Positions 8,933 to 17,898 of a stretch of 64,000 nucleotides of DNA are shown in pieces. The stretch is from Verrucomicrobiia bacterium (GTDB lineage Bacteria; Verrucomicrobiota; Verrucomicrobiia; Limisphaerales; CAIMTB01): the NCBI GenBank assembly GCA_019634625.1, contig JAHCBA010000011.1, positions 1 through 64,000 of the forward strand, written 5' to 3'. Made by a program: the position numbers and the translations under genes. The notes below the pieces were generated by a model. It had not been told where the DNA came from. It did no database searches and worked only from the letters and a program-made list of their open reading frames with translations. Every line of letters begins with the position of its first letter. Position 1 is the first letter of the stretch.

Positions 8933-9018
8933 TCAGGCTTCAGGTTCAGGTCTCAGGTTTCAGGTCTCAGGTTTCAGGTTTCAGGTTTCAGGTTTCAGGT
9001 TTCAGGTCTCAGGTTTCA
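8933..9018. repeat. Heptanucleotide tandem repeat (TCAGGTY)x12
   Basis: About twelve imperfect copies of TCAGGTT/TCAGGTC fill nearly the whole gap between the histidine kinase and the TIM-barrel gene. On the leftward strand the unit reads RACCTGA. The last unit supplies the TGA stop (9016-9018) of the kinase, so repeat-length changes would move DNA directly next to the stop codon. One unit near 8940 is a base short. Origin probably replication slippage. Confidence 0.85.
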
Positions 9019-10578
9019 AAGTGGCTGAACAGTCCTGGGTGGGGCATCGGGCCAGGTGAAGCGGAAGGTGGTGCCGACGCCCTCTTCGGAGGCCACATGG
9101 ATCTGGCCGCCGCGGCGCTCGACGATGCGTTTGACGAGGGCGAGGCCGACGCCGGTTCCGGGGCGGTCGGGGAGGAGTTCGAGGCGCTGGAAGAGGCCGA
9201 AGATCTTCTCATGAAAGCGGGCGGGGATCCCGGGGCCGTTGTCGGAAACGCTGAACTCCCAGGCGGGGCCGACGCGGCGGGAGGTGACCTGGATGCGGCC
9301 TTCGGGTTTGTCGAGGAACTTGATGGCGTTGTCGAAGAGGTTGAGGAAGATCTGATGGAGCTGGTGGGGGACACCGGAGACGGTGGGGAGGGGTTCGGGG
9401 GTGCGGATGGTGAAGTTGGGGGGTGGATCGAGGAGCTTGGAGAGTTCCGCGACGAGGCGGTTAAGATCGACGAGCGACTCCGGGCCGAGGCCGCGTCCGA
9501 CGCGGCTGTAGGCAAGGATGCCGTCGATCAGGGCGTGGAGTTTGCGGACGCGGCCCTGGAGTTTGCCGATGAGGAGGCGGCCATCGTCGCCGAGGCGTTC
9601 CGCGTGGTCTTCGCTGAGGAGTTCGGCGAGGCGGGCCACGCCGCGGAGGGGGGCTTTCAGGTCGTGGGTGACGGCGTACACGAGGTCAGTGAGCTCGCGG
9701 TTGGCCTGTTGGAGGGCTTCGGTGCGGCCATGGACCAACTCCTCGAGTTGTTCCTGGGCCTGGCGGAGGACTTCGTCGGCCTGGCGTTGGAGGGTGATGT
9801 CCTCGGTGACGCCGACGCTGGTGGCGATGCGGCCTTCGGGGGTCCAGGAGTGGGCGATGCGGGTTCGGACCCAGCGGACATCGGTTCCGGGGGAATTGAC
9901 GCGGAACTCGGAGGTGAACTCGCGGGTGCCGTGCTGGGCGCTCTGCCACTGGGTGAGAACGCGGTCGCGGTCTTCAGGGTGGACCATCTGCCACCAGACG
10001 CCCTGGGGTTGGGGCACGTGGAGGAGGTCGGCGAGGGTGCGCCAGCGGCGGTTGGCATAGCGGAGGCGGCCGGCGGCGTCGGTGATGAAGACGCCGCAGG
10101 GGGCGTGCTGGCTGAGGAGGTGGAGGAGAGCATCGCTTTCGCGGAGGCTCTCGGCCTCTTTGTGGCGTTCGGTCAGGTCGGTGAAGACGGCATGGACTCC
10201 GCCACGGTGATCGCCTTCGAGGATGGGGGTGCCGGCGGTTTCGACGGGGATCTGGCGGCCATCCGAGGCGAGGAGGAACAAGCGGGTTCGGCCTCCGGCG
10301 ACCTGGCGGCAGGCGGACTGCATCCAGGCCTGGCAGGCCGCGTGGTCGTGGGGATGGACGATATCGAAGAGGCTGACGCCCTGGAGCGGGGCGTCCGCGG
10401 GTGCGATCAGGGTGCGGAGGGCGCGATTGGCGAACACGACCCGGCCCTTGGAATCGAGGATGGCGACGCGGTCGGGCGCGGTTTCGTAGAGGTCGAGGAA
10501 GGCCTCGGCACCGGAGGTGGGCGGTGCCGTGGCGGGGGGCGGGGCTTGGGGCGACGTCAAGGGGTGGTGTTGGCTCAA
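9016..10578 (-). CDS. Soluble PAS-PAS sensor histidine kinase
   Basis: A 520-residue kinase with no transmembrane segment. Domain order: PAS (about 28-140, ending VFTDLTERHKEAE), PAS/PAC (about 150-265, ending GVTEDITLQRQAD), a short coiled coil, DHp with phospho-accepting His305 in AVTHDLKAPLRG, and HATPase with N-box NLFDNAIKFLD, G1 DNGPGIP and G2 GTGVGLALVKRIV. The DHp/ATPase type matches phytochrome-like or bacteriophytochrome-associated kinases. No receiver or partner regulator is adjacent, so its partner is unknown. The longest frame begins with TTG; no better upstream start exists. Its TGA lies in the heptamer repeat downstream. It is separated by 54 bp from the porin gene. Confidence 0.9.
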   Translation of the reverse strand: MSQHHPLTSPQAPPPATAPPTSGAEAFLDLYETAPDRVAILDSKGRVVFANRALRTLIAPADAPLQGVSLFDIVHPHDHAACQAWMQSACRQVAGGRTRLFLLASDGRQIPVETAGTPILEGDHRGGVHAVFTDLTERHKEAESLRESDALLHLLSQHAPCGVFITDAAGRLRYANRRWRTLADLLHVPQPQGVWWQMVHPEDRDRVLTQWQSAQHGTREFTSEFRVNSPGTDVRWVRTRIAHSWTPEGRIATSVGVTEDITLQRQADEVLRQAQEQLEELVHGRTEALQQANRELTDLVYAVTHDLKAPLRGVARLAELLSEDHAERLGDDGRLLIGKLQGRVRKLHALIDGILAYSRVGRGLGPESLVDLNRLVAELSKLLDPPPNFTIRTPEPLPTVSGVPHQLHQIFLNLFDNAIKFLDKPEGRIQVTSRRVGPAWEFSVSDNGPGIPARFHEKIFGLFQRLELLPDRPGTGVGLALVKRIVERRGGQIHVASEEGVGTTFRFTWPDAPPRTVQPL

Positions 10579-10632: not shown

Positions 10633-11940
10633 TCAGAACGAGAAGCCGTAGGCACCGGAGAGGAGGTGGACATCCACCTCGTAGCGGCCGAGGAAGCCGG
10701 GGTTCTGGTTGCTGGCGATGCGGCGATCCGCATAGAACACCCGGGAGTAGGCCAGCCCGAGGCGGTGGCGTCCATGCCGATATCCCACTCCGGCGGCGAT
10801 GGCGTGCTGGTTGGCGTCGGGGATTTCGGGGGAGAAGGTGTGATCGGGTACGGGGCTTTCGAAGAACTGGTAGCTGGCCTGGAGGCGCCAGCCGGAGCCG
10901 AGGTCCCAGGTGCCGGCGACGCCGACGGTGAGGGTATCGCGCCAGTCCTGACGGATTTCGGGCGCGAGGAGTCCGGCGAAGGGGCCGAGGGCGGCGGCGG
11001 GAACGCCGATGGGCAGGGTGTCGAAGCGGGAGAATTCGAGCCATTCGAGGTTGGCTTCGACGCGGAAGGCGTCGGTGATCTGCCATCCGTAGCCGACGGC
11101 GAGGATGGTGGGGAAACGGATGCGGCTGGCGAAGGGGGCACCGAGGGCGCCGCCGGGCACGCCGGGCACGCCGGTGGCCAGGAGGTTGCCGTCGTAGTTG
11201 ACGTTGAGGGGGGTGCGCAGGGTGGCGGCGAGGCGGTGGTTGGGGACGAACTCCCAGGTGACGCCAAAGTTGGCGCCGATGCCCGTGCCGGAGCCGTCGA
11301 GGCGCAGGTCGCCATCGGGGAGTCCGGGGATGCCGGTGAGGAGCCCGAGCGGCATGAAGCGGCGGAGGGACAGTTCGGAGTACATCACATCGAGGCCGAA
11401 GCCGAGATGGAGGCCGTCGGCGGCGCGGACGGCGAGGGAGGGATTGAAATTGAAGCTGCTCAACTCGACGTAGCGGGCGGCGGTGTAGCGCAGGGCGTCG
11501 CCTTCGCCCCAGTCGATGGAGAGGCCGTAGGGGACGCTGACGCCGAAGCCAAGGGCGACGCGGTCATCGACGAGGGGTCCGCCGGCGAAGAAATGGGGGA
11601 GGAGTTTCCATGGGTCCTCGGTACGGGCGGAGGCGCCGGCGGGGGAGGTGTAGCGAACGGAATGGTGGACGAAGGTGGGTTCGGCGGAGGCTTCCCAGCG
11701 CTGCAGTTCGAGGAGATTGGCCGGGTTGTGAAAGACTGCGGAGGCGTCGTCGATGAAGGCGATGCGGCCGCCGGTGGCGGCGAGACCGGCGGTGCCGGTG
11801 GTGGGGCTGCGGAAGCCTTCGGCGTGAGTGCCGACGGTGCCGACGGTGCCGACGGTGGCGGCGAGGGTGGCGGTCAGGACGGAGAGGCTCCCGCGGGCGG
11901 CGGCGCGAGGGTATTTCGCGGAGACGATGCAACTCGACAC
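10633..11940 (-). CDS. FadL/TodX (OMPP1) family outer-membrane transport protein
   Basis: An outer-membrane beta-barrel of the FadL/TodX family, which imports hydrophobic compounds such as long-chain fatty acids or aromatics. After the signal peptide come the family hatch-like start FRSPTTGTAGLAATGGRIAF, the DASAVFHNPANL motif, alternating amphipathic strands and the C-terminal SGAYGFSF ending in Phe, as in proteins inserted by BamA. I place the start at GTG 11940, which gives a basic n-region, a hydrophobic stretch and cleavage after THA. An ATG at 12039 adds 33 Pro-rich residues that do not look like a signal. The signal region contains GTCGGCACC triplications, and a 26-bp imperfect duplication occurs near the start (CAAAHGSLG/RAAARGSLS). 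Confidence 0.85.
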   Translation of the reverse strand: MSSCIVSAKYPRAAARGSLSVLTATLAATVGTVGTVGTHAEGFRSPTTGTAGLAATGGRIAFIDDASAVFHNPANLLELQRWEASAEPTFVHHSVRYTSPAGASARTEDPWKLLPHFFAGGPLVDDRVALGFGVSVPYGLSIDWGEGDALRYTAARYVELSSFNFNPSLAVRAADGLHLGFGLDVMYSELSLRRFMPLGLLTGIPGLPDGDLRLDGSGTGIGANFGVTWEFVPNHRLAATLRTPLNVNYDGNLLATGVPGVPGGALGAPFASRIRFPTILAVGYGWQITDAFRVEANLEWLEFSRFDTLPIGVPAAALGPFAGLLAPEIRQDWRDTLTVGVAGTWDLGSGWRLQASYQFFESPVPDHTFSPEIPDANQHAIAAGVGYRHGRHRLGLAYSRVFYADRRIASNQNPGFLGRYEVDVHLLSGAYGFSF

Positions 11941-12254
11941 CCCGAGGCTTCCGTGGGCGGCGGCGCAAGGGGATGGGAGCCTGGGGTCTGGGAGAGGTGC
12001 GGGGGACGAGACAGGGGACGGGAGGGGATGGGAGTGCATGACTTTCTGAATTCTTATGCCCGCGGGGGGATGGAGGAAGCAAGCGGCGTCTATGATGAGG
12101 GTTCTTCAAAAATACTCTCACCGGAGTTTTGCTTTCCTACGAAGGGATGGTGTAGGAACGCCGCATGCGCCGAAGCGAGTTGTTCCGGGGCGAAGAAGCG
12201 GCGCGGGCAACCGGGGGTGCGCCTTAGTCACGCCCGCTTAAGTGATTCCATTAC
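11941..12254. other. Divergent intergenic region between the porin and the phc-like operon
   Basis: About 310 bp between the leftward porin and the rightward methyltransferase operon, so promoters for both must lie here. The stretch 12091-12140 is AT-rich relative to its surroundings and is the likeliest promoter zone. I see no convincing -35/-10 pair, operator or RNA structure. There is no Shine-Dalgarno sequence just before the ATG at 12255. Confidence 0.5.
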
Positions 12255-13712
12255 ATGGGACTGAGCAACAGCGACAATCCGCTGCTAGTGAGTCGCGACT
12301 TACTGGTCACGTGTCGGAACAGTCTTGGGGCGCCGGTGCGAGCGACGCCGGTACGACTGTCGCGGTACACGGCGCTCCTGGAGATCTACAATCCGCACAG
12401 CATTCTTCAGTTGTCGGAGGTGCTGGCGGAGTTTCGGATCAACATCGGGGAGCGGTGTGTGTACGCGGGGCGGGGGGTGGTGAGCAGCATCGTCAACACC
12501 GGCATCATGGTGATGTGCGAGGTGACGCTGGACGACGGGTGGCTGGACGTTGATTTGTTCTCGCCGATCGCGCAGCCGGAGCGGTTGCGGGAGGAGTTCC
12601 AGGGATTCATCGCCAACTGGCGGCGGCTGCAGGCGATCAGTCCGGACTTCAAGGTGGCGGTGGCGGATTTCCAGATGTTGCTGACGGAGCTGCGGCGGTG
12701 GCTGGACCAGGTGGAACTGGGGGTGCGATCCGAGCCGGTGGGGATGCGATCGGAGATGGAGAAGCGGGTTTTGACGTCGCTGGAGTTGCGGATTGTGGAG
12801 GAGGCGAACGAATGGTTCGGGAAGTTCGACGCGGTGGCGAGCCAGGTGGATGAGGAGACGCGACCGGCGCACCGGGCGTATGCGCGGCGGCAGATTCATC
12901 CGCTGGTGATGTGTTCCCCGTTTGTGTACCGGACGTTCCACAAGCCGCTGGGATACGCCGGGGACTACGAGATGGTGAACATGATTCTGCGGGAGCCCCA
13001 CGAGGGGGCGACGCTGTTTGCCAAGCTGGTGAACGCGTTGTTTCTGCAGAATCCGCCGGCGCAGGCGCACCGGAACCGGATTCATCATTTGCGGGCGCGG
13101 CTGGTGGAGGAGACGGCGCGGGTGGCGGCGCGGGGACGGAGGGCGCGGATTTTCAATCTCGGGTGCGGGCCGGCCCGGGAGGTGCAGTTGTTCCTGGGGG
13201 AGAACGGGGAATCGGACGAGGCGGACTTTGTGCTGGCGGACTTCAACACCGAGACGCTGGGGTTTGCGCGGGGATTGCTGGAGGAGTTGAAGGGGCGGCA
13301 CCGTCGGCGGACCGGGCTGGAGTATGTGGAGAAGTCGGTGCACCAGCTCTTGAAGGAGGCGATGCGGGGCGGGGACGGGCCGATGGCCGGGGGGTTTGAC
13401 TTCGTGTATTGCGCGGGGTTGTTCGACTATGTTTCCGACCGGGTGTGCCGGCGGCTGACGGAGTTGTTTTACTCGATGCTGGCTCCGGGCGGGCTGATGC
13501 TGGTGACCAATGTGGATGCTTCGAAGCCGTTCCGGCACTCGATGGACTATCTGTTGGAGTGGCACCTGATCTTCCGGGACCGGAACCAGATGCGGACGCT
13601 GCTGCCGGAGAGCGTGTCGGCGGTGGAGCGGAACGTGCTGGCGGACCCGATCGAGGTGAACCTGTATCTCGAGGCCCGCAAACCCCCGGAGGCGGCGCCC
13701 GCGCATGGCTGA
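12255..13712 (+). CDS. PhcB-like SAM-dependent methyltransferase with N-terminal PilZ-like domain
   Basis: A 485-residue protein and first gene of a three-gene signalling operon. Residues about 10-110 form a PilZ-like beta domain (VYAGRGVVSSIVNTGIMV) without an intact c-di-GMP motif. A helical linker follows, then FHKPLGYAGDYEMVNMI, a motif I associate with the family named after PhcB, the enzyme making 3-hydroxy fatty-acid methyl ester signals in Ralstonia. The C-terminal Rossmann methyltransferase has SAM motif I at about 299-307 (FNLGCGPAREV), an acidic motif II (VLADFNTE) and FDFVYCAGLFDYVSD. Its stop overlaps the sensor kinase start by 8 nt. That it makes a diffusible lipid signal is inferred from family resemblance and context. 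Confidence 0.72.
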   Translation: MGLSNSDNPLLVSRDLLVTCRNSLGAPVRATPVRLSRYTALLEIYNPHSILQLSEVLAEFRINIGERCVYAGRGVVSSIVNTGIMVMCEVTLDDGWLDVDLFSPIAQPERLREEFQGFIANWRRLQAISPDFKVAVADFQMLLTELRRWLDQVELGVRSEPVGMRSEMEKRVLTSLELRIVEEANEWFGKFDAVASQVDEETRPAHRAYARRQIHPLVMCSPFVYRTFHKPLGYAGDYEMVNMILREPHEGATLFAKLVNALFLQNPPAQAHRNRIHHLRARLVEETARVAARGRRARIFNLGCGPAREVQLFLGENGESDEADFVLADFNTETLGFARGLLEELKGRHRRRTGLEYVEKSVHQLLKEAMRGGDGPMAGGFDFVYCAGLFDYVSDRVCRRLTELFYSMLAPGGLMLVTNVDASKPFRHSMDYLLEWHLIFRDRNQMRTLLPESVSAVERNVLADPIEVNLYLEARKPPEAAPAHG

Positions 13713-16605
13713 GCTTGGCAAGGAGGTGTTGTCGGCATTTCGCCGGCACGAGCGGTCGATCGGGCTGCAGCGGCTCCGGCTCGGGTGCTGGATTGCGATG
13801 GCGCTGACGCCGCCGGGCCTGGTGATCGACGTGCTGTATTACAAGCCGAAGCAGGATGTGTCGGTGGACATCATCGTGCTGCTGTTCATCCGGCTGATCT
13901 GCACGGCGGCGATCCTGCCGATCCTGTACCTGTCGTGGCAGCGTTTCGGAATCCGGCATTACCGGCTGCTGGGGGTGCTGCTGGCGGCGGCGCCGGCATT
14001 GTGCATGGCGTTGATCATCGGGGTCACCGACGGGACGGCGTCGCCGTATTACGCCGGGCTGAATCTGGTGCTGCTCGGGGTGGGGATGGTGATGCAGTGG
14101 ACCCTGGTACAGAGTCTGTCGGCGGCGGTGATGGTCATCGTCATGTATCTGGGGGCGGTGATTCTGTCGCCGTCGTCGTTCCAGGCGGGGATCTTCCTGA
14201 ACAACATCTGGTTCATGCTGCTGACCTCGATCATCGTGGTGATTGGGAGCCAGGTGAGCAGCAAGCTTCGGTTCAGCGACTTCGTGTCACGGCACAATCT
14301 GGACCGGAGCCGGCACGATTTGGAGGCGACCAACGAGCGTCTTGGGGAGACGAACCAGCGTCTGGCGGAGACGAACCAGCGCATGCGGGAGCTGGACGAG
14401 CTGAAGGGCCGGTTCTTCGCGAATATCAGTCATGAGCTGCGTACGCCGCTGACCCTGCTGCTGGGGCCGATCGAGCATCTTTCGCAGCACCCGGCGATCG
14501 TCCGGGACGAGCGTCTGCGGGAGTATGTGGGGACGATGCAGGACAACGCGCTGCGATTGTTGAAGCTGATCAACGATCTGCTGGACCTGGTGCGGCTGGA
14601 TGCGGGGCAGTTCCGTCTGCACAAGGTGCGGTTCGAGGTGGCGACCTTCACGGCGGGATTGCTGAACGCGGTGCGACGGTTTGCGGAGGACCGGGGATTG
14701 CGGGTGAGCTGCAACAACGCGCCGGAGTTGTCAGAGATGTGCGGGGACCCGGACAAGCTGGAGAAGGTCCTGCTGAATCTGTTGTTCAACAGCATCAAGT
14801 TCACCCCGGCGGGGGGCGAGGTGCGATTGAACGGGTATCGGGACGGGCCCTGGGTGGTCTTCGAGGTGAGGGACACGGGCATGGGGATCTCGCCGGAGAA
14901 CCTGGCGCAGCTTTTCCAGCGCTTCTGGCAGGCCGACAGCTCGTCGCACCGGAAGTACCAGGGAGCCGGACTGGGCCTGGCCCTGGTGAAGGAGCTGGTG
15001 GAGGCGCACGGCGGCGAGGTGATGGCGCGGAGCGAGGTGGGGAAGGGGACCACCATGACCGTGCGGCTGCCGTTGGAGGGCGAAGGGGAGGCTGCCAAGG
15101 GGACGGGGCGGGCCGCGGCGCCGGCCGGGGAGAAGGGGAACGAGGCGACAGGACACGGGACGGCAGGCGGCGACGCGGGGCCCGCGGGCGTGGCGGTGGG
15201 TGCGGCGTCCCGGCCGGTGGAGGGCGACGGAGGGAGGAACGGGTCCGGGGCCGGGGAGGAGGAGGTGGAAGGGGAGGGGGTGGAGGCCGGGGTCGAGGCT
15301 GGGGGGTCGGGGACGCCGGCGGGGTTTGAGACGCGGCGGCACCTGGCGGCGCTGTACAAGCGGGCGGAGCTGCATGCGAGCATCACGCCGTTACGGGCGA
15401 GTCTGCGGCCGTGGGATCCGGGACGGGGTGGGAATCGCCCGGAGATCCTGGTGGTGGACGACGAGCCGGACATGCTGCGGTTTCTGCGGAGCCAGTTGGA
15501 AGACGATTACCAGGTGCGGGAGGCGGTGGACGGCGATCAGGCGACGGTGATGGCCTCGCAGTATCTGCCGGACGCGGTGGTGTGCGACATGATGCTACCG
15601 GAGAAGGACGGGCTGCAGGTTTGCCGGGAGTTGCGGGCCAATCACACCACCCGATCGCTGCCGTTCCTGATGCTGACGGCGCGGGCGGACGACGAGACGA
15701 AGCTGGCGGCGCTGGGGGCGGGGGCGAGCGACTTCTTGCCGAAGCCGTTTTCGACGGCGGAATTGAAGCTGCGTTTGAAGAACCTGGTGGATGCGCACCG
15801 GCTGCAGGAGGAGCTGGCGCGGCAGAACCGGAAGCTGGCTTCGACTCTGGAGGAGCTGCGGGAGACGGAGATGCAGCTTGTGCAGGCGGAGAAGATGGCG
15901 TCGCTCGGGCGTCTCAGCGCGGGGATCATCCACGAGATCAACAATCCTCTGAACTTTGCGCGGACCGGGCTGCACGTCCTGAAGCGGCACAGCCAGCATA
16001 TTCCGGCGGAACTGCGCGAGGAGTACGACGAGGTGTTGCAGGACATCGGGGACGGCATCGTGCGGGTTTCGACGATTGTGGGGGATTTGCGGCAGTTCAG
16101 TCATCCCCAGGGCGACGCCGTGGCGGAGGTGGATGTGGGGACGGCGGTGGAGGCGGCATTGCGGTTCCTGTCGGCGGACTGGAAGGACGGGCGGGTGGAC
16201 GTGGCGAACGAGATTCCGGAGGGATTCGTGGTGTACGCGAACCGGAACAAGCTGGTGCAGGTGTTGCTGAACCTGTGTCAGAACGCGATCGACGCGATGC
16301 GGGACCATCCGCCGGCGGAGGGCAAGGCGCGGCTGCAATTGCGGGCGTGGCAGGAGGACGGGCGACGGCGGCTGGGGGTACGGGACAACGGCCCGGGCAT
16401 CCCGGCGAACCACCTGGCGCACATTTTCGAACCGTTTTACACGACGAAGGACGTTGGCAAGGGCATGGGGCTCGGGTTGAGCATCTGCTACCGGATCATG
16501 GAGGAGGTTGGGGGGCGGATCACGGTGGACACGGAGGAGGGGCAATACTGCGAATTCGTCTTGGACTTTCCCGATCGGTTTGACGATAAGGAAGCCGAAG
16601 GATAA
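13705..16605 (+). CDS. Six-TM hybrid sensor kinase HK-REC-HK (PhcS-like)
   Basis: A 966-residue membrane kinase. Six hydrophobic helices (about 27-185, including SPYYAGLNLVLLGVGMVMQW) form an input domain like that of lipid-signal sensors such as PhcS and LqsS. Then come a coiled coil with ETNQRL repeats, DHp His243 (NISHELRTPLTLLLGP), and HATPase (NLLFNSIKF, DTGMGIS, GAGLGLALVKEL). A low-complexity Gly/Ala/Glu linker (about 455-545) leads to a receiver with Asp628 (VVCDMMLPEKDG), a coiled coil and a second kinase with His743 (GIIHEINNPLNF) and its own ATPase domain (DNGPGIP, GKGMGLGLSICYRI). It overlaps the methyltransferase gene by 8 nt and is followed 30 bp later by the receiver-ATPase gene. 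Confidence 0.9.
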   Translation: MAELGKEVLSAFRRHERSIGLQRLRLGCWIAMALTPPGLVIDVLYYKPKQDVSVDIIVLLFIRLICTAAILPILYLSWQRFGIRHYRLLGVLLAAAPALCMALIIGVTDGTASPYYAGLNLVLLGVGMVMQWTLVQSLSAAVMVIVMYLGAVILSPSSFQAGIFLNNIWFMLLTSIIVVIGSQVSSKLRFSDFVSRHNLDRSRHDLEATNERLGETNQRLAETNQRMRELDELKGRFFANISHELRTPLTLLLGPIEHLSQHPAIVRDERLREYVGTMQDNALRLLKLINDLLDLVRLDAGQFRLHKVRFEVATFTAGLLNAVRRFAEDRGLRVSCNNAPELSEMCGDPDKLEKVLLNLLFNSIKFTPAGGEVRLNGYRDGPWVVFEVRDTGMGISPENLAQLFQRFWQADSSSHRKYQGAGLGLALVKELVEAHGGEVMARSEVGKGTTMTVRLPLEGEGEAAKGTGRAAAPAGEKGNEATGHGTAGGDAGPAGVAVGAASRPVEGDGGRNGSGAGEEEVEGEGVEAGVEAGGSGTPAGFETRRHLAALYKRAELHASITPLRASLRPWDPGRGGNRPEILVVDDEPDMLRFLRSQLEDDYQVREAVDGDQATVMASQYLPDAVVCDMMLPEKDGLQVCRELRANHTTRSLPFLMLTARADDETKLAALGAGASDFLPKPFSTAELKLRLKNLVDAHRLQEELARQNRKLASTLEELRETEMQLVQAEKMASLGRLSAGIIHEINNPLNFARTGLHVLKRHSQHIPAELREEYDEVLQDIGDGIVRVSTIVGDLRQFSHPQGDAVAEVDVGTAVEAALRFLSADWKDGRVDVANEIPEGFVVYANRNKLVQVLLNLCQNAIDAMRDHPPAEGKARLQLRAWQEDGRRRLGVRDNGPGIPANHLAHIFEPFYTTKDVGKGMGLGLSICYRIMEEVGGRITVDTEEGQYCEFVLDFPDRFDDKEAEG

Positions 16606-16635
16606 GAGGACCCACGGAGCATCGACGGTGCCGGC

Positions 16636-17898
16636 ATGAACTCGATCTACGATTACAAGCGGTTCGCCATTCTCTATGTGGATGACGAAGAGAAGTCGCT
16701 GAAGTACTTCACGCGCGCATTCACGGACACGTTTCGCATCTTCACGGCGAACAGCGCGCAGGAGGGGTATCGAATTCTGGAGGACCACCAGGATGAGATC
16801 GGCGTGGTGATGACGGATCAGCGCATGCCTGGGGAGCAGGGCGTGCAGTTCCTGGAACGGGCCCGGAGGCTGCGGCCGCAGATCATCCGGATCCTGGCCA
16901 CGGCGTTCGCCGACCTGGACGCGGCAATCTCGGCGGTGAACAGCGGCGCCATCTACAAGTACGTGACCAAGCCGTGGGAGCCGACGGAGCTGGAGACCAC
17001 GCTGAAGCGGAGTCTCGAGTTCTTCTCGGTGCAGATCGAGCGGGACCTGTTGCTGCGGGAGAAGCTCTCCGTGCTGCACCGGCTGTTGATCACCGACCGG
17101 GTGTTGAGCCTTGGGGTGCTGGCGGCGGGTCTCGGCCGGCACGTCCGGCACGCGTTGGAGGCGGTGGGGACGTTCCTCGAGCTGGCGCCGAACATGGCGG
17201 GATCGGAAGTGGTGGACCTGGACCGGTTGCGGGAGCCGAACTTCTGGGAGGCGCTGCACAACCATGCCCACGGGCGGCTGCGGTTCATCCTGGGGTTGCT
17301 GGACGACCTGGCGGAGGACCGCGGCGCCAGCTTCCGGTTTGACCAGGAGGTGCGGTTGCGCGAGGCGGTGGACGAGGGGATCCAGCCGATTGCCGGGGAT
17401 CTGGCGACGCGACGGATCGAGGTGGCCAATCTGGTTCCCGCGGATCTGCCGGCCGTGCTGGTGGATCCGAGGCGGTTCCGGAAGCTCTTCTCGTTCCTGC
17501 TGCGCCATGAGCTGGCGACGCTGCCCGAGGGTTCCGTGGTCCGCATCGAGGCGAGCCTGCGTCCTTCCGGAGGGGACCGGGCGGAGGAGATCGACGTGTT
17601 CGTGACGGACAACGGCAAGGGAATTCCGCCGCAGACGGTGTTGTCCTTGTTCGACCCGCTGCAGGTGGACGGTCAGCCCACGTCGGAGTCGGAGATGTAC
17701 CTGATGGCGGTGTACTTCATTGTGTACCACCACGGCGGGCGGATCCAGGTGGGGCAACCGGCCGGGCGGGGTTTGGCGTTGACCTTGACGCTGCCCTTGC
17801 GGCCGAAGCCGAGCGAGCCTGGGGACGAGACGCGGGATTTCCTGGTGCGGGCGATGACCAACGAGCGGCTTTGGGATCGGCTGCTGGCCGGGGTCTAG
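16636..17898 (+). CDS. Receiver domain fused to kinase-like ATPase domain (PhcR/PhcQ-like)
   Basis: A 420-residue cytoplasmic protein closing the operon. The N-terminal receiver (about 8-125) has phospho-acceptor Asp61 in VVMTDQRMPG, Lys in YVTKPWEP, and Asp-Asp near 16. A helical segment follows with GRHVRHALEAVGTFLELAP (His169 and His172), where a DHp helix would lie. This lacks the canonical H-E/D-x-x-N/T-P motif. The C-terminal HATPase-like part has DNGKGIPPQTV, but its N-box is weak (FSFLLRHEL). A receiver followed by a kinase-like domain is the unusual layout described for PhcR and PhcQ of Ralstonia. There is no DNA-binding domain, so output must go through protein contacts or another regulator. 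Confidence 0.8.
   Translation: MNSIYDYKRFAILYVDDEEKSLKYFTRAFTDTFRIFTANSAQEGYRILEDHQDEIGVVMTDQRMPGEQGVQFLERARRLRPQIIRILATAFADLDAAISAVNSGAIYKYVTKPWEPTELETTLKRSLEFFSVQIERDLLLREKLSVLHRLLITDRVLSLGVLAAGLGRHVRHALEAVGTFLELAPNMAGSEVVDLDRLREPNFWEALHNHAHGRLRFILGLLDDLAEDRGASFRFDQEVRLREAVDEGIQPIAGDLATRRIEVANLVPADLPAVLVDPRRFRKLFSFLLRHELATLPEGSVVRIEASLRPSGGDRAEEIDVFVTDNGKGIPPQTVLSLFDPLQVDGQPTSESEMYLMAVYFIVYHHGGRIQVGQPAGRGLALTLTLPLRPKPSEPGDETRDFLVRAMTNERLWDRLLAGV

Follow-up and report, generated by a model that had tools for sequence, protein, structure and literature searches.

The operon analysed here probably encodes a verrucomicrobial module for cell-cell signalling by lipids, of the Phc type, a reading to which we assign a probability of roughly 0.68. 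It lies in a stretch of 64,000 nt (the window) belonging to contig 11 of an 88-contig, 6.74-Mb assembly that is 97% complete. A first-pass annotation of the sequence alone had described three tightly packed genes; their coordinates, the 8-nt overlap between the first and the second and the 30-bp gap between the second and the third were all verified (Table 1). The motifs it had pointed out, HKPLGYAGDYEM in the methyltransferase and SPYYAGLNLVLLG in the six-TM domain, were also found and are kept in homologues. Its main inference stood up to profile, tree, neighbourhood and structure tests. The complete synthase-sensor-responder triad that it proposed stands as a module but not as phcB-S-R: because the middle protein carries a histidine kinase-receiver insert and the third is a joint relative of PhcQ and PhcR, the plain PhcB-S-R reading was rejected in favour of phcB-phcS(+inserted HK-REC)-phcQ/R. 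Together, these results suggest Phc-type chemical communication in another phylum, running without its usual master regulator. NCBIfam contains no specific model for any of the three proteins, and PADLOC gave no defence-system match, so that a defence-system reading was rejected. The functional unit probably extends upstream, beyond 12255-17898, to the divergent fadL gene.

Table 1. Features of the operon and of the genes upstream of it (window coordinates)
Feature	Coordinates	Strand	Evidence
PAS-PAS histidine kinase downstream of fadL, role uncertain	9016..10578	-	Pfam, neighbourhood clusters
Divergent FadL/OmpP1/TodX outer-membrane long-chain fatty-acid channel, proposed signal channel	10633..12039	-	PF03349
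PhcB-type SAM-dependent methyltransferase, 485 aa, proposed signal synthase	12255..13712	+	Identity, motifs, tree, model
PhcS-type hybrid membrane sensor, 966 aa, 6TM + HK1 + receiver + HK2	13705..16605	+	Pfam, genome search, TM profile, tree
Six-TM PhcS sensor domain with SPYYAGLNLVLLG	13705..14352	+	Six-helix model, fold matches
HK1, HisKA + HATPase, His243 in FFANISHELRTPL, inserted, no PhcS counterpart	14404..15078	+	Pfam, tree
Internal receiver, Asp628, not PhcR/PhcQ type	15445..15777	+	Pfam, receiver tree
HK2, His743 in SAGIIHEINNPL, orthologous to PhcS kinase	15862..16572	+	SH-aLRT 95, 38% identity
PhcQ/PhcR-type response regulator, 420 aa	16636..17898	+	PhcQ search, receiver tree, alignment

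The first protein matches C. necator PhcB over its full length (42% identity over 462 aa). In it, an N-terminal beta domain (residues ~16-92) is followed by a helical middle and by a domain with the class I methyltransferase fold. The segments KPLGYAGDY, NLGCGPAxE and YCAGLFDY are conserved in the protein and its homologues, and the motifs of the catalytic domain are invariant from Burkholderiales through Verrucomicrobiota. Pfam returned generic methyltransferase matches only, all under the cut-off. The N-terminal part is common to the first protein and C. necator PhcB, and is missing in the shorter relatives carried by rhizobial and other plasmids. In the tree, Burkholderiales PhcB and the verrucomicrobial proteins formed one group, apart from the superfamily relatives, with a support of 100/100. 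The full-length match and this grouping thus sustain the earlier view of a PhcB-like methyltransferase, and no affiliation with an unrelated family was seen. The verrucomicrobial side of the tree is far more diverse than that of Burkholderiales, whose PhcB may be nested inside verrucomicrobial diversity, with a weak rooting on a very distant outgroup. The AlphaFold model (pLDDT 80) has as its top PDB match 3ocj (Z 20.4), a Bordetella protein without a stated function. The superfamily also includes standalone methyltransferases without kinases, which counts against a signalling reading.

A PilZ domain at the PhcB N-terminus, plausible by eye, was rejected as Pfam supported it in none of 14 members. 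Part of a type I polyketide synthase encoded on an Enterobacter ludwigii plasmid (NZ_CP134637, 46587-47552) resembles the PhcB-like methyltransferase (25%, E 2e-16).

The second protein had been described as a six-TM kinase. The six TM segments were retained, while the simple kinase was not, Pfam identifying two HisKA/HATPase modules that flank a receiver. C. necator PhcS as query gave 59 kinase matches genome-wide. HK2 of the operon sensor ranked first (E 2e-47) and the front half of this sensor third, in a match that starts at PhcS residue 17; nowhere else in the genome did a match cover both the TM region and the kinase (residues 17-442). In a comparison of TM domains, which the first-pass annotation had proposed, the profiles of the verrucomicrobial and PhcS groups aligned over 211 columns, the whole length of the domain (E 1.2e-41), and the segment YYAGLNLV is identical in the window sensor and C. 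necator PhcS. HK2 grouped with PhcS kinases in the kinase tree (SH-aLRT 95; 38% identity), whereas HK1 did not. From these placements and from the plain PhcS form at one locus (L040), where the HK1-receiver insert is absent, the operon sensor is a PhcS with an inserted kinase-receiver module. Of its catalytic residues that were checked (His, Asp, N/G-box), none is altered in either kinase or in the receiver. A fusion of PhcS and PhcR was also considered and was rejected, as the internal receiver does not group with PhcR.

The model of the six-TM domain (pLDDT 86) contains six TM helices. Its fold matched ImcA (Z 14.6) and the membrane anchors of human adenylyl cyclases 5, 9 and 8 (Z 12-14) over ~200 residues, the next rows reaching Z 9 over ~110 residues. 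This predicted likeness is suggestive, helical bundles scoring high by chance. It agrees with reports that cyclase-type anchors are interchangeable with those of the quorum sensor CqsS (PMC4821796) and that adenylyl cyclase anchors are lipid-responsive (PMC12414865).

Sensor architecture varies among relatives. Three loci of the same genus (L025, L026 and L027) encode ~130 aa between TM5 and TM6 that are absent from the window's sensor, possibly an additional ligand-binding element that members of the genus acquired or lost. At a locus from another class of the phylum (L152), the sensor is apparently split into two genes, one for TM segments and kinase (485 aa) and one for a second kinase (395 aa), and no PhcQ-type gene was detected at this locus.

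In the third protein, the receiver joined to a kinase-like ATPase domain that had been proposed is indeed present, but the kinase half is degenerate. The protein comprises a receiver, a DHp-like segment and a degenerate HATPase domain, and a DNA-binding domain is absent. It ranked first in the genome-wide search with C. necator PhcQ (4e-38; runner-up 6e-19), with 42% identity across residues 11-199, and it contains the PhcQ-like linker ERDxLLREKLSVL. In the receiver tree it joined PhcR and PhcQ, without a settled branching among the three, and was separate from the internal receiver of the sensor; one gene representing PhcR and PhcQ alike would fit this picture. A separate PhcR (receiver plus histidine kinase) is absent from the operon, which has one PhcR/Q-type gene only. 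The N-box Asn is lost from the kinase-like half in all 15 aligned family members, and the His of the DHp-like box, kept in 11 of these 15, is replaced by Arg in the window protein. Judged from these two changes, the third protein is probably not a kinase in this genome. The exchange of the phospho-acceptor His for Arg is found in 3 of 4 genus members, most other families retaining His. At four loci from several families (L029, L030, L031 and L038), a further receiver-HATPase gene occurs downstream of the triad, adjoining it in three; it is a possible relay partner.

The verrucomicrobial origin suggested for the DNA is likely. The 16S probe site in the genome reads ACACCTACGGGTGGCAGC, a site targeted by probe EUB338-III, which serves to detect Verrucomicrobiales; more weakly, the genome has a match to Verru_Chthon_A, below the cut-off, of a kind found in none of 14 control genomes. 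The absence of a phcA-type regulator, noted earlier for the window, extends to the whole 6.7-Mb assembly: no PhcA orthologue was found genome-wide, the C. necator PhcA query giving one weak match (24%, E 1.7e-5). In Ralstonia, PhcQ binds PhcA (PMC13320629). Since the genome has no PhcA orthologue, the partner of the third protein must be a different one.

As reference Phc system we used that of C. necator UYPR2.512 (L098), where the operon order is phcB-phcS-phcR-phcQ and a LysR gene stands 22 kb off beside fur, where phcA is known to lie. This layout agrees with that of C. metallidurans, where phcBSRQ is Rmet_2949-52 and fur-phcA is Rmet_2976-77 (PMC2864759). Between C. necator JMP134 and R. 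solanacearum, the Phc proteins share 56-75% identity (PMC2842291). In the survey of gene neighbourhoods that had been proposed, the order of the triad recurred in nearly all complete loci read, from other families and orders of the same class, and this recurrence argues that the order is not due to chance. Full-length synthase homologues occur in 22 of the 41 genomes examined in the order, including that of the window (in one of the 22 the gene is broken in two). Of 289 genomes sampled across the phylum, 17 to 18 have such a homologue, most of them from the same class. No earlier report of PhcB in Verrucomicrobia was found in the literature searched, the co-mentions opened being incidental.

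Some Burkholderiales loci lack PhcR or its kinase half. In Paraburkholderia (L045-L061), PhcR is apparently reduced to its receiver (~134 aa in P. graminis), while a search between phcS and phcQ at three further loci (L067, L095 and L112) revealed no phcR. These loci are natural phc operons without the PhcR kinase.

The divergent gene upstream of the operon encodes the only FadL of the 6.74-Mb genome (PF03349, E 9e-48, 163 bits versus a cut-off of 29.7, profile positions 3-421 of 421). Of the 22 genomes from the order that have a complete synthase gene (the one with the gene in two pieces included), 14 carry fadL within ~5 kb of it, against 0.06 expected by chance from genome sizes and FadL numbers (P ~1e-31, or 3e-27 without the three congeners of the window, kinship being otherwise ignored). 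Its arrangement varies: divergent, co-directional upstream or, in other families, downstream, the last type being verified by Pfam in three loci. No FadL was found near the operon in the other 8 genomes, in one of which the contig ends just upstream, nor in any of 80 Burkholderiales phc loci up to 8 kb on each side. Neighbours pointing to a non-lipid signal, which had been named as evidence against the proposal, were not seen; the recurrent neighbour is FadL. This linkage hints at a hydrophobic, fatty-acyl signal and is the strongest independent hint of a long-chain lipid. FadL homologues help rhizobia to import and sense long-chain AHL signals (PMC5977203). The gene for a PAS-PAS histidine kinase is also kept beside the operon within the genus. 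Just 5' of the synthase start codon, a TAAnTGATTnC motif (12235-12262) is kept in three genomes of the genus, in an intergenic region that is mostly not conserved within it.

The analysis establishes the homology and domain composition of every part, the conservation of their order, the link to FadL and the lack of a PhcA orthologue. The substrate and signal, the direction of transport, the order of the phosphorelay, a dependence on cell density and the targets are inferred, and the best inference is that the module makes and senses a methylated fatty acid. The PhcB-like enzyme would methylate a fatty acid, probably one with a 3-hydroxy group, at its carboxyl to give a diffusible methyl ester, which would cross the outer membrane through the divergently encoded FadL channel. 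The six-TM PhcS-type domain would bind the ester within the inner membrane, and binding would alter the phosphorelay that leads from HK1 via the internal receiver and HK2 to the third protein's receiver. As the third protein has no DNA-binding domain, it would act by protein contact on an effector other than PhcA, in the way that Ralstonia PhcQ acts on PhcA. Against this explanation count the missing PhcA, the 8 of 22 genomes where no FadL was seen near the operon and the kinase half of the third protein, which looks inactive in this copy; FadL could, moreover, serve nutrition rather than signalling.

The same module could carry another methylated hydrophobic signal, in which case it would be Phc-like but without 3-hydroxy fatty acid methyl esters. 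Candidates are acyl esters with branches or double bonds, methylated hydroxy-lipids and polyketide-like acids. The 58% sequence divergence from PhcB and the many hydrophobic compounds taken by the FadL family (OMPP1/FadL/TodX) would leave room for such a signal. Even close PhcB homologues may make a variant one, since C. metallidurans gave activity but not 3-OH PAME itself (PMC2864759). We nevertheless regard this as unlikely, the motifs of the catalytic domain being invariant from one phylum to the other.

More improbable still is a sensor that monitors exogenous fatty acids via FadL rather than taking part in cell-cell signalling, with a methyltransferase that alters or eliminates the ligand or adjusts sensitivity. 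The FadL family is best known for its part in uptake, the operon has no linked secretion gene and the third protein has no DNA-binding domain, all of which would suit cue sensing. However, almost every locus has the gene for the PhcB homologue joined to that of the sensor, here by the 8-nt overlap, and the same joining is seen in phcBSRQ, where PhcB is the synthase (PMC8578825). An ordinary two-component operon, in which the methyltransferase acts on an internal protein or membrane lipid and fadL is an unrelated neighbour, could account for the generic, sub-threshold Pfam matches and for the several standalone superfamily members without kinases. It is scarcely credible in view of the full-length PhcB homology including the N-terminal domain, the PhcS-type TM domain, the PhcQ-type regulator and the strong FadL linkage. 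The Phc-type signalling module remains our preferred reading.

Phc signalling has been described as a speciality of Ralstonia and Cupriavidus, tied to PhcA and, in Ralstonia, also to plant virulence. A broader and more tentative proposal, to which we give somewhat less than an even chance, is that of an old, conserved fatty-acyl quorum sensing of Verrucomicrobiota with a dedicated FadL channel and a PhcA-independent output, of which the phc system of Burkholderiales would be a later or transferred offshoot. If true, this ancient system would be the first PhcB-kind lipid signalling known outside Betaproteobacteria. A homologous module that lacks PhcA and shows greater diversity in Verrucomicrobiota than in Burkholderiales would uncouple the core of the signalling from virulence, and a phylum common in soil would gain a candidate fatty-acyl language. 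The FadL linkage would suggest a route for hydrophobic signals across the outer membrane, and the conserved YYAGLNLV segment in an adenylyl cyclase anchor-like fold would be a place to seek the ligand site of this receptor class.

Among known systems, the closest is phcBSRQ with phcA (Ralstonia solanacearum, Cupriavidus). The likeness extends to the full-length synthase homologue (42% to C. necator PhcB), the PhcS six-TM domain with its kinase, a PhcQ/PhcR-type receiver protein without DNA-binding domain, an identical gene order and tight spacing. In contrast to phcBSRQ, the window operon has an extra HK1-receiver module inside PhcS and one PhcQ/R-like gene instead of two, its genome has no PhcA orthologue, and fadL adjoins the synthase gene, an arrangement absent from all 80 Burkholderiales loci. 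The operon is Phc-like in design, but as it comes with neither PhcA nor a separate PhcR, we do not class it as the Phc system itself.

In the Vibrio CqsA/CqsS and Legionella LqsA/LqsS systems, the gene near that of the sensor encodes a synthase that is a PLP-dependent acyltransferase. Here, no PLP-dependent synthase was found beside the sensor, and the adjoining candidate is a SAM methyltransferase; what is shared is the nearness of synthase and sensor genes, together with a six-TM histidine-kinase sensor of a lipophilic signal (PMC4821796). With rhizobial long-chain AHL sensing (PMC5977203), the operon has in common a FadL-family channel tied to a long-acyl signal system, although the rhizobial FadL serves a LuxI/LuxR-type system while that of the window is linked by position to a PhcB/PhcS-type module, with a proposed role as signal channel. 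Finally, the six-TM anchors of class III adenylyl cyclases and ImcA resemble the sensor in fold (Z 12-14.6, ~200 residues) at a sequence identity of 11-16%, the effector in the window being a histidine kinase.
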